From the NCBI GenBank assembly GCA_030841035.1, contig JAVEDI010000090.1, forward strand, positions 1-37,736: a stretch of DNA of 37,736 bases. The letters run 5' to 3'. Below are positions 21,867-26,020 of the stretch, piece after piece (within the stretch, counting starts at the first letter, position 1; each line of letters starts with the position of its first letter). Made by a program: the position numbers and the translations under genes. Source of the DNA: Actinomycetota bacterium. Its GTDB lineage: Bacteria > Actinomycetota > Actinomycetes > JACCUZ01. The notes below the pieces were generated by a model. It did not search any database. It saw nothing but the letters and a program-made list of their open reading frames with translations, and had not been told where the DNA came from.

Positions 21867-21878
21867 GCCCGTGACGGG
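21779..21878 (+). repeat. Imperfect direct repeat, left copy (dprA 3' end)
   Basis: About 100 bp that match 24110-24208. The first 19 bases agree at 18 positions (CTGGCGGCGCGCG then TCGAG); a diverged 17-base stretch follows (16 in the other copy); then 64 bases align without gaps with 53 identities. The left copy covers the last 88 coding bases of dprA (through its stop) and 12 bases beyond. The two copies bracket the 2.3-kb riboswitch/SipW island. Confidence 0.8.
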
Positions 21879-21903
21879 TGAGTGGACCCTGCCGCCGGGA
21901 CGG

Positions 21904-23439
21904 TCAGACGCCGGCGCTGACGGTCGCGCTGCTCTCGCCCTGCGGCGCCCGCGTGCTGTATCGGTAGGTCACGCCCTCATCCTGCACGATGTAGGTGTCC
22001 ACTCCGCTGCGCGACCAGTGCAGGACGAGCAGGCCGTAGCGCTCGGCGAGGCGGACGAGCATGGGGAACTCGCTGACGTCGACGACCGGGCGCCCGGGCG
22101 CGGCGGCCACCGGCTGGACGGACAGCAGCAACTGACCGTGCTGGCGGCGGATCCGCTCGGACTCGGCGAGCGGCTGCGACCGACGGGCGATCAGGGCAAG
22201 CAGTCCGGCGATGACCGCGGCCAGGCCCACGGCTGCGGCCGAGACCTTCCGGGCCAGCGCCCCGGTCATCGAACGGCCCGTGAAGGTCAGCCGGCTCGCC
22301 GCCTGTCGGGTCGAGGTGACGGGGGTCGATTCCTTGATGGTCAGCTTGGCGCCGTCGCCGTCGGTCAACCGCAGCGCGGTCGGGTCGAGCTGGAAGCTGA
22401 GCGTGGGCTCGAACGGTTGGGTGGTGCCGGGAGTGCTCACCGTCGGGGCGATGGTGACGCTGACGGCGCCGGCCGGGATGCCGGTCGCCTTCCCCGCCGC
22501 GTCGGCGCGCCGCTGCAGAGCACTCAGGTCGAGGCTGACCCTGCCGTCGTACCTGCCGCCGTCGAACGTCTCCCGACCGGAGAGCGGGACGGTTGAGCGC
22601 CACCCGCTGGACGTGGCCAGCTTCGCCGCCACCGAGACGGTGCCGTGGCCGCCCGGCGACGCGCCGGTGAATCGCAGGCGGAGCGTGACGTTGTCCGTCA
22701 GCCGGCGGAACACGGGCTCCGGGGCGGTAACGGTGGTTCCGTCGTATGCCGGCGACTGCGGGACCGTCGCGGTGTAGGAGAACTGCATCCGCGAGGTGGC
22801 CTGAGTCGACGCCGCGGTGGCGTGCTCGACCGGTCGCGTCCAGGCCACGAGTCCCAGGGCCGACCCCGCAATGCCGAGCGCCGCGGCGACCGCAGCCGTG
22901 GAACGCAACGCGGGCGGCAGGGCTGGCGCCCCCGTCGCGAGCCGCGTTCTAGGAGGTGCGGCATGGCGGGACACGTTGCGTTCCTTCCTGCGGCGGCGAC
23001 GGGTGCGGGTGAAAGCGGGGCCGCCGGTTGCGAACAGCGCGAACGCGGCGAGACCCAGTCCGCCAGGACTGGCGGCGCGCTTGAGCCAGAGTCCGCCCTG
23101 CGGGACGTGGAGGAGCGCCTTGCCGATCAGCTGGCTGTGCGTCGGCTTCTCCGGGTCTAGCCACGAGTTGTTGTCGCCCTTGAAGACGTACCGATCGCCT
23201 TCGATTGCCACGATGCGGTGCAGGACGACGGTGTTGAGCATCGGTGAGTCGTAGGCCGTAACGTCGCCGACCGCGTATGACGTCGCGGGACGAACGACGA
23301 CGAGGTCCCCAGGGCTGAACCGCGGCTGCATGGAGACGCCATGCGTCACCACGGCTCGGGGCACCTGGTCGACAAGCAGGACGAACGGGAGCACGGCGAC
23401 ACACAGCCCTAGCGCCCATAGCGCTCTGGCACGCCGCAT
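21904..23439 (-). CDS. SipW-like signal peptidase fused to a DUF5305-type domain
   Basis: A 511-residue membrane protein. Residues 1-145 are an S26B (SipW/archaeal/ER-type) signal peptidase: a membrane helix (7-24), S36 in THGVSMQP, H74 in VVLHRIV and D89 in FKGDNNSWLDP, so the general base is His and not Lys as in the LepB at 16566. A basic loop (RTRRRRRKER) follows, a second helix (about 181-200), and a large external beta-rich region (FSYTATVPQSPAYDGTTV onward) of the DUF5305 type. A last helix near residues 405-428 precedes a C-terminal tail containing LVLHWSRSGVDTYIVQDEG. The ATG at 23439 has GGGAG 7 bases upstream. Its substrate is probably the small protein encoded 44 bases upstream. 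The DUF5305 name is from memory of the family. Confidence 0.85.
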   Translation of the reverse strand: MRRARALWALGLCVAVLPFVLLVDQVPRAVVTHGVSMQPRFSPGDLVVVRPATSYAVGDVTAYDSPMLNTVVLHRIVAIEGDRYVFKGDNNSWLDPEKPTHSQLIGKALLHVPQGGLWLKRAASPGGLGLAAFALFATGGPAFTRTRRRRRKERNVSRHAAPPRTRLATGAPALPPALRSTAAVAAALGIAGSALGLVAWTRPVEHATAASTQATSRMQFSYTATVPQSPAYDGTTVTAPEPVFRRLTDNVTLRLRFTGASPGGHGTVSVAAKLATSSGWRSTVPLSGRETFDGGRYDGRVSLDLSALQRRADAAGKATGIPAGAVSVTIAPTVSTPGTTQPFEPTLSFQLDPTALRLTDGDGAKLTIKESTPVTSTRQAASRLTFTGRSMTGALARKVSAAAVGLAAVIAGLLALIARRSQPLAESERIRRQHGQLLLSVQPVAAAPGRPVVDVSEFPMLVRLAERYGLLVLHWSRSGVDTYIVQDEGVTYRYSTRAPQGESSATVSAGV

Positions 23440-23483
23440 CACCGCGCTCCCGTCCGACCGTTGGGTGACGCCAGCCCTTCCCG

Positions 23484-23858
23484 CTAGTTGGCGACGAGCG
23501 CGAACTTGGTCGCGCCACCCACGGGCTGATTGACCGCACAGGTGTACGTCGTCTGCGAGGTCGCGTCGTACGTGCCGGCGTCGGAGCAGGTCGCGGGTGC
23601 CGCATCGTTGAAGGCAACCTGGATCGTCTTGCCAGTGGTGTCCGTGGCCAGGGTGAGCCCGACCGAAGTGATCGTGTCACCGGCAGCGTTGGTGTTGTAG
23701 GTGATGGCCGAAGCGGTCACCCCGGTGATGGTCTGGGACCCGTACCCCTTGACCACGCTCGGGGTGGGCACCTCGTTGCTGGCGGTGAAGGCGGAGCCGG
23801 CTGTGGCGATGACGCCGGCGATCGCGAGCGCTCCGAGGAGCTTGCTCTTGTGGTGCAT
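23484..23858 (-). CDS. Small secreted fibre-like protein with SipW-type signal peptide
   Basis: A 124-residue exported protein. The signal peptide is MHHKSKLLGALAIAGVIATA followed by GSAFTASN, the pattern seen in SipW-processed camelysin/TasA-like proteins. The mature part (about 100 residues) is rich in Thr, Ser, Ala and Gly with alternating beta-strand character (SQTITGVTASAITYNTNAAG) and two cysteines (C91, C107) that could form a disulfide. I chose the ATG at 23858: AAAGGA lies about 11 bases upstream and the frame before it is the riboswitch. It probably forms a surface filament or matrix protein; that is inference from the family resemblance and the adjacent SipW gene. Confidence 0.82.
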   Translation of the reverse strand: MHHKSKLLGALAIAGVIATAGSAFTASNEVPTPSVVKGYGSQTITGVTASAITYNTNAAGDTITSVGLTLATDTTGKTIQVAFNDAAPATCSDAGTYDATSQTTYTCAVNQPVGGATKFALVAN

Positions 23859-23879
23859 GGGTGGTGGCGTTCCTTTCAT

Positions 23880-23951
23880 TCGGTAGCCCGGCCGACCGCG
23901 TGGGTCCCGTGGCTTTGCGCCCCCGGCTCGCACCGGGTTTGCCCTTGTCTT
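23880..23951 (-). promoter_or_regulatory. Cyclic-di-GMP-I riboswitch (GEMM-I) in the fibre operon leader
   Basis: Read on the minus strand, the leader contains GGGCAAACC, a 6-bp P2 stem CCCGGU/GCCGGG capped by the GNRA tetraloop GCGA (plus-strand 23922-23937), GGCGCAAAGCCACGGG (the conserved CGCAAAGCC plus P3 side and tetraloop receptor), and GCCGGGCUACCG at the 3' end (plus 23881-23892). These are the conserved blocks of the GEMM-I aptamer, in order and at normal spacing. The aptamer ends 7 bases before AAAGGA, the ribosome-binding site of the fibre gene, so control of translation is likely, although whether c-di-GMP turns it on or off cannot be read. Confidence 0.92.
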
Positions 23952-24109
23952 GACGACCCTCTTGTCGTCCCCCCCGCCGATCACTTGACCGGTACACCCG
24001 ATTTTGAGGCGGAGCTACCAGAACATGTGGGTTGTCGGTGGCAGGTGAGCTGGTGAGGGGGGAGCAGATCCAGGTAGCTCTCCCTATCTAGTCCTCGCCC
24101 GGACAACCG

Positions 24110-24208
24110 CTGGCGGCGCGCGGTCGAGGGAAGCAGCGCCGAGCCCCGCCACGCAGCGGTGGTGCTTGCAACGGTGGCTGCGGGCCCGCACGGTAGGCGC
24201 GTGACGGT
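24110..24208 (+). repeat. Imperfect direct repeat, right copy (before xerC)
   Basis: Partner of 21779-21878, ending 5 bases before the xerC start. Read in the frame WRRAVEGSS...RHAAVVLATVAAGPHGRR it is open, and the matching frame of the left copy (RHAAVLLATVRRGPRSRP) is not the one dprA now uses. This looks like a remnant of an older dprA 3' end. Confidence 0.75.
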
Positions 24209-24213
24209 GGCCC

Positions 24214-25164
24214 ATGACTGACACGCCGGGCGAGCCCGACGGCGGTGGCGAGCTGCCGGCGGCGCTCGCCGGCGTCCTCGCCGACTACGAGCGCCACCTG
24301 CGATCGGAGCGTGGCCTGTCCCCGCACTCGGTACGGGCCTACGCCGGCGACGTGGGTTCGCTGCTCGAGCACGCCGCGCGGATGCGGCGTACGACGCCGG
24401 AGTCCCTCGACCTTGCGGTGCTGCGCAGCTGGCTGGCCCGGCAGGCCAGCTCCGGTCGGGCCCGCAGCACGCTGGCCCGCCGGGCCGCGGCCGCGCGGAC
24501 CTTCACCGGCTGGCTGGCCCGCACCGGGCGAGCACCCACCGACGCAGGGGCCCTGCTGGGCACGCCGCGGGGCGGCCGGACGCTGCCCGGCGTCCTGCGT
24601 CAGGACGAGGCCGGCGCCCTGCTCGACGTCGCCGCCGTCGCGGCCGACGACGACTCCCCCCTGGGGTTGCGCGACGTCGCGATGCTGGAGGTCCTCTACG
24701 CCACGGGCTGCCGGGTGGGCGAGCTGTGCGGCCTCGAGGACGACGACGTGGACTGGTCGCGGCGGGTCGTCCGCGTGCTGGGGAAGGGTGCGAAGGAGCG
24801 GGTGGTGCCCCTCGGTGTTCCCGCCGTGCGGGCCCTCGAGGCGTGGCTGGCGAGGGGCCGTCCCCAGCTGCGGGAAGCGAACAGCGGTTCAGCGTTGTTC
24901 CTGGGGGCACGAGGTAAACGTGTCGATCCGCGTACCGTGCGCCGAGTGGTCCACCGCCTGCTGGCGCACGTCGCGGGCGCCCCTGACCTGGGACCACACG
25001 GCCTCCGGCACTCCGCGGCGACCCACCTGCTCGAGGGAGGAGCCGACCTGAGAACCGTTCAAGAGCTTCTCGGCCACGCTACGCTCGCAACGACCCAGAT
25101 CTACACCCACGTGTCCGTTGACCGGCTGAAGGCGACATATGACCAAGCGCACCCACGGGCGTGA
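24214..25164 (+). CDS. xerC: Tyrosine recombinase XerC
   Basis: A 316-residue Xer recombinase that resolves chromosome dimers at dif with XerD. The N-terminal SAM-like domain ([20 protein letters not shown]) is intact. Catalytic residues: R167 (GCRVGEL), K191 (GKGAKERV), H262 and R265 (HGLRHS), H288 ([13 protein letters not shown]) and nucleophile Y297. All are present. Its place between dprA and whiG is the usual one in several actinobacteria, so it is the housekeeping recombinase and not an integrase of the adjacent island. No clear ribosome-binding site was seen before the ATG at 24214. Confidence 0.93.
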
Positions 25165-25204
25165 CGGCACATCTGCCGCCGCGGCGCCGAGGGGAGGGGG
25201 TGCT

Positions 25205-26020
25205 GTGAGCGCGGTGCGAACGGCCGACGGGGAGCCTGCCGCCGAGAAGACCGCGGCGGAGGCCGCTCTGCGGGAGCTGTGGCAGGGATTCAAGAAGTCC
25301 GCTGACCCGGCCCTGCGCGAGCGACTGATCCTGCACTACTCACCGCTCGTCAAGTACGTCGCCGGCCGCGTCGGCGTCGGGCTGCCGCCCAACATCGAGC
25401 AGGCGGACCTCGTCTCCTACGGCATCTTCGGGTTGATCGACGCCATCGAGAAGTTCGACCTCGAGCGCGCGATCAAGTTCGAGACCTACGCGATCAGCCG
25501 CATCCGCGGCGCCATCATCGACGAGCTGCGCGCGATCGACTGGATCCCGCGCTCGGTGCGCTACAAGGCGCGCGAGGTCGAGAAGGCCTACGCGGCCCTG
25601 GAGGCGCAGCTGCACCGCACGCCCACGGAGGCGGAGGTCGCGGCCGAGATGGGCATCAAGCTCGACGACCTGCACCAGATCTTCAACCAGGTCTCGTTCG
25701 TCAACGTCGTGGCGCTCGACGAGCTGCTCAGCGTCGGTGGGGAGAAGGGCGACAAGCTCAGCCTCGTCGACACCCTGGAGGACACCAAGGCCGAGGACCC
25801 GGTGCTCGCCTTCGAGTCCGAGGAGACCAAGTTCCTGCTCGCGAAGGCGATCAACACGCTGCCCGAGCGGGAGAAGATCGTCGTGACGCTCTACTACTAC
25901 GAGGGCCTCACGCTGGCCGAGATCGGCCAGGTGCTCGGGGTGACCGAGAGCCGTATCTGCCAGATGCACACCAAGGCCGTGCTCCAGCTGCGCGGCAAGC
26001 TGGCCGAGGGCCACGACTGA
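25205..26020 (+). CDS. whiG: WhiG/FliA-family RNA polymerase sigma factor
   Basis: A sigma-28-type factor of 271 residues from the GTG at 25205, preceded by a strong GGGGAGGGGG (about 25191-25200). An ATG at 25139, overlapping xerC by 26 bases, would give 293 residues. Regions 2-4 are complete: [50 protein letters not shown], and the C-terminal [35 protein letters not shown]. It closely resembles Streptomyces WhiG, which is bound by the anti-sigma factor RsiG armed with c-di-GMP. In motile actinobacteria the equivalent factor drives flagellar genes. Which process it controls here is unknown. No rsiG was seen in the window. Confidence 0.92.

Follow-up and report, generated by a model that had tools for sequence, protein, structure and literature searches.

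The minus-strand leader of a two-gene operon carries a class-I c-di-GMP (c-di-GMP-I, or GEMM-I) riboswitch aptamer at 23878–23952, directly ahead of the ribosome-binding site. The operon, which lies in the 37,736-nt stretch of DNA from an uncultured actinobacterium analysed here (the window), encodes a small secreted protein and a signal peptidase of the SipW/archaeal type. We consider it rather probable that the leader is a functional class-I c-di-GMP riboswitch, most likely acting on translation initiation of the operon and in the ON direction. The riboswitch class is known and the aptamer is standard; what is new is the type of operon controlled, apparently an undescribed target, and our literature search found no paper tying c-di-GMP riboswitches to SipW operons.

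Identity of the aptamer

A direct search with RF01051 scored 61.7 bits against a cut-off (GA) of 35, with an E value of 1.7e-11 across the whole 3.95-Mb genome, while the same model returned zero matches in 14 control genomes. The first-pass annotation of this DNA had proposed a GEMM-I riboswitch and named this search as its check; the result lies far beyond chance. All the GEMM-I blocks that it had listed were found on the minus strand, namely GGGCAAACC (23936–23944), a P2 stem capped by a GNRA tetraloop (GCGA), GGCGCAAAGCCACGGG and GCCGGGCUACCG, the last reaching to 23881. The P1 stem is weak, the equivalent of G14-C93 being its sole pair. The class assignment is borne out by the score, by the diagnostic residues described below and by the position of the aptamer, which is kept in relatives.

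The ligand is contacted in Vc2 by G20, A47 and C92, equivalent to G12, A39 and C104 of Vc1, and an interhelical pair (C36-G90 in Vc1) is universally conserved (PMC4744006). Counterparts of the three contacts and of the interhelical pair (C44-G83 in Vc2) are all present on the minus strand of the window: G at 23943 (G20), A at 23916 (A47), C at 23883 (C92) and C at 23919 (C44), with distances from the G20 equivalent of 24 nt to C44, as from G12 to C36 in Vc1, and of 27 nt to A47, an exact match to the spacing in Vc2 and Vc1. The partner of the C44 equivalent is the G at 23892, 9 nt ahead of the C92 equivalent, which we take to correspond to Vc2 G83.

Annotation of the window with cmscan placed RF03167 (c-di-GMP-I-GGC) on top, with 61.9 bits (GA 59, E 2e-12 in the window) over the span 23878–23952; clan competition in this program leaves out the lower-scoring clan member. 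The lead of 0.2 bits over RF01051 speaks for an RNA of the GGC variant, with altered ligand specificity. However, the A47-equivalent residue, which we assume to be what distinguishes RF03167, is an A in the window (CGCAAAG), whereas the RF03167 consensus has a G (CGCGAAG). Moreover, the aptamers L035, L039 and L042 receive the RF03167 label too, yet contain CGCAAAG, and the RF01051 score is well above its own cut-off. The variant identity was rejected on this residue, and an altered specificity seems very unlikely; since the RF03167 consensus is unmatched at the A47 equivalent, canonical c-di-GMP recognition is the better reading of the sequence. A still weaker case can be made for a chance resemblance, or for a coding N-terminal extension of the small protein, given that a longer GTG-initiated open reading frame (23984–23484) crosses the aptamer. 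The E value of the RF01051 match argues against it, the homologs of the protein share the same MHHK/MRKS-type start, and in the genome G028 that ATG is the first start codon past an upstream stop. We rejected the longer frame as the gene on account of this homologous start, and score and homologs together already refute this explanation in practice.

As a side observation, Rfam clan competition tags canonical actinobacterial c-di-GMP-I aptamers (that of the window, L035, L039 and L042) as the GGC variant, and automatic annotation will probably mislabel such aptamers in the same way.

Leader architecture and mode of control

The aptamer lies upstream of the small-protein gene (23484–23858), within the wide span named in the first-pass annotation, with about 20 nt between it and the start codon. 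The Shine-Dalgarno (SD) sequence AAAGGA occupies 23871–23876 on the minus strand, 12 nt ahead of the ATG, and the covariance models end at 23878 (RF03167) or 23879 (RF01051), leaving a gap of 1–2 nt. The distance of 7 bases to the ribosome-binding site given in the first-pass annotation needs a small correction: we measured 1–2 nt, or 4 nt when counting starts at the end of the final block. On the 5' side the aptamer adjoins a hairpin (GACGAC-AAGAGG-GUCGUC, 23952–23969, minus strand), seen in the sequence and in minimum-free-energy folds, whose stem pairs perfectly over 6 bp. A scan of 23440–24240 for sigma-70-like promoters and intrinsic terminators found none.

Translational control is favoured because the aptamer ends 1–2 nt from the SD with no terminator between them, and a preference for the translational type has been described for riboswitches of Actinomycetota (PMC12452182). 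The leader is predicted to bind c-di-GMP and to act on translation. In the proposed mechanism, the aptamer would govern how translation of the operon's two genes starts, with high c-di-GMP most likely altering ribosome access; the output of a presumed surface or matrix protein would then rise with c-di-GMP, and the operon's own peptidase would mature the product.

In folding predictions the accessibility of the SD stayed at about 0.7 with the aptamer fold enforced or left free, and no anti-SD or alternative fold stronger than shuffled controls was found. Two candidates were rejected. Sequestration of the SD by the 5' flank did not exceed that of shuffled flanks over the set of aptamers (0.58 vs 0.48) and was 0.00 in the window, while pairing between the aptamer core and the start region was likewise not above shuffles over the set, 39% of the shuffles at least equalling the value of the window. 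As no switching structure was found, the direction has to be inferred; by analogy with the c-di-GMP riboswitches that control pili and adhesins, ON seems somewhat the likelier.

The opposite direction, in which the ligand-stabilised aptamer would block the adjacent ribosome-binding site, draws on the same 1–2 nt distance, and some relatives (G003, G006, G079) have a 5' flank able to pair with the SD while the aptamer stays intact. Against this stand the failure of such pairing to exceed shuffled flanks and its absence from the window, as well as the fact that surface or matrix targets are more usually raised by c-di-GMP, so that we regard OFF as the less likely direction. Less likely still is an intact aptamer fold that regulates transcription, by early termination or processing. 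Many GEMM-I switches do use terminators, and the hairpin adjoining the aptamer could be read in this sense, but 23440–24240 contains no terminator-like site and only about 20 nt are available between aptamer and start codon. An ON switch of translation initiation remains our preferred reading.

The two-gene operon

The first gene encodes a 124-aa small secreted protein, with a signal peptide ending in ...GSAFTASN, and has homologs in G028, G056, G062, G390 and G029 (27–40% identity in the first four). The second (21904–23442, minus strand) begins 41 nt past its end and encodes a 512-aa signal peptidase of the SipW/archaeal type fused to a DUF5305-like region. The peptidase part matches TIGR02228 with 57.4 bits (cut-off 51.85) and the DUF5305-like region matches PF17231 with 41.4 bits (cut-off 29). 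The SM and HR motifs are invariant across five homologs, making the enzyme of the Ser-His rather than the Ser-Lys kind, and the model for the Bacillus SipW equivalog, NF046067, gave 21.8 bits on it, under a cut-off of 190.

The first-pass annotation had described the small protein as fibre-like and processed by SipW. The SipW link is supported by the neighbouring gene, which encodes a SipW/archaeal-type peptidase (TIGR02228) in all six operons of this kind; the small protein itself matched no signal-peptide family model. We consider it the probable substrate of the peptidase. Its fibre-like nature found no support, the only family match being a sub-threshold one of 15 bits and the low-confidence structural model being unlike TasA structures. 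The protein had no match in Pfam, and its predicted structure (pLDDT 63, β-rich) gave no informative PDB match, the best (E 0.05) not being TasA. A scan of the protein over the genome contigs matched the G028 record only, and a broader alignment yielded no usable stretch.

Distribution of the operon and its link with aptamers

Six of the 394 genomes of the class contain the operon (that of the window, G000, with G028, G056, G062, G390 and G029), a count that excludes weaker small-protein matches in other genomes. In each of the six, the following gene encodes a peptidase of this type accompanied by a DUF5305-like region, which scores below the Pfam cut-off in some and occupies a separate frame in G029. 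Half of the six operons have an aptamer: besides the window, G028 (66.6 bits) and G056 (37.7 bits), both from other families, carry one 16 nt ahead of the homologous gene, while the operons of G062, G390 and G029 have none.

A different SipW operon follows a 70.8-bit aptamer in G004, a member of the window genome's family. It starts with the gene for a 122-aa secreted protein and continues, about 180 nt further on, with one for a protein resembling camelysin/TasA (PF12389, E 0.0024, under the cut-off); next come a SipW-type peptidase, scoring 78.8 bits with TIGR02228, and another small secreted protein. Across 60 relatives, which hold 29 SipW-type loci and 31 aptamers, 4 of these loci are located no more than about 1.3 kb downstream of an aptamer, where 0.012 would be expected. 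As three of these four coincidences involve one homologous operon, the safer count takes it once, which gives two independent events (P about 8e-5). The association between aptamers and SipW operons is therefore recurrent.

Other c-di-GMP-I aptamers of the class

By sequence and distance to the start codon, the aptamers of the class fall into three settings. Those ahead of type IV pilins, at about 45–90 nt, include the second aptamer of the window genome (42 bits; L002:1501-1579, minus strand, contig G000:C77), located between pilC-like and type IV pilin genes, and those ahead of CAP-domain secreted proteins stand at about 60–85 nt. The third setting, to which the window aptamer belongs, combines a short distance (12–20 nt) with the blocks GGCAAACC and GACGCAAAGCCACGGG; its targets are small SipW-type proteins, WxL-like surface proteins (identified by eye), a glycoside hydrolase and a response regulator in G257. 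The genes behind aptamers at 12–20 nt mostly encode exported proteins.

Several of these aptamers deserve mention in their own right. In several actinobacterial genomes, a distinct group with GGCACACCG...GCCGCAAAGGCA (L096, L097, L101, L104, L105 and others) stands ahead of genes for CAP-domain secreted proteins. L086 (G257) and L087 (G297) stand shortly ahead of response-regulator-like genes, a signalling rather than a surface target. In the window genome's family, L040 (G003) and L041/L113 (G006) precede genes for WxL-like surface proteins, again recognised by eye; the protein from G003 had no Pfam match.

Physiological context and known systems

The genome encodes 25 GGDEF and 18 EAL domains of c-di-GMP enzymes, and a search of it for a flagellin gene gave no match. 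The link to a sessile/motile state suggested in the first-pass annotation is accordingly unsupported in its flagellar sense, and the genome is more in keeping with a programme for surface structures or pili than with a switch of flagellar motility.

The window aptamer shares with the Vibrio cholerae RNAs Vc2 and Vc1 (RF01051) the P2/P3 architecture, the GNRA loop, the G20/A47/C92 contacts and their spacing; unlike them, it sits directly ahead of the SD of a SipW-type operon, with a weak P1 and no recognisable expression platform. Second-messenger RNA control of pili and adhesins is known from the pilA1 and adhesin switches of Clostridioides difficile (PMC6366702), and the second aptamer of the window genome likewise precedes a pilin, but the C. 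difficile switches differ in using class II aptamers and transcription termination and in their target proteins. The operon resembles the sipW-tasA and calY matrix operons of Bacillus (PMC4292775, PMC10269814) in placing a secreted substrate beside a dedicated archaeal-like signal peptidase. In contrast to these, its substrate has no TasA homology by the tests run, and its peptidase is fused to a DUF5305-like region.

For uncharacterised SipW operons with DUF5305-like regions, the link to an aptamer would offer a clue to function. Accounts of c-di-GMP control in actinobacteria usually centre on proteins, BldD and RsiG-WhiG among them; if SipW-processed secreted proteins and type IV pilins were recurrently controlled by RNA, this would be a second branch, open to direct testing.

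An accessory cassette between dprA and xerC

In the window, dprA and xerC are 2.35 kb apart, and the interval (21867–24213) is taken up by the riboswitch and the two genes of the operon; comparison with relatives identifies this insert as an accessory cassette. In six of seven relatives from the family (G001–G005 and G007, the same genus included) dprA and xerC adjoin with a short, empty gap; the contig of the seventh, G006, starts inside xerC, making it uninformative here. The two genes also adjoin without the cassette in G028 and G056. Since the gap is short in relatives, leader and operon look like one unit acquired together by the window genome. More tentatively, a mobile cassette of the Actinomycetia may be involved, in which a c-di-GMP-I riboswitch adjacent to the ribosome-binding site would gate a TasA-like, SipW-processed matrix by RNA alone; such a coupling would then have more than one origin, involving two unrelated SipW operons.

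Close to the cassette lies the gene for the sigma factor WhiG (whiG, 25139–26020, plus strand). The WhiG of Streptomyces is itself controlled by c-di-GMP via RsiG, but relatives without the cassette have whiG at the same position.
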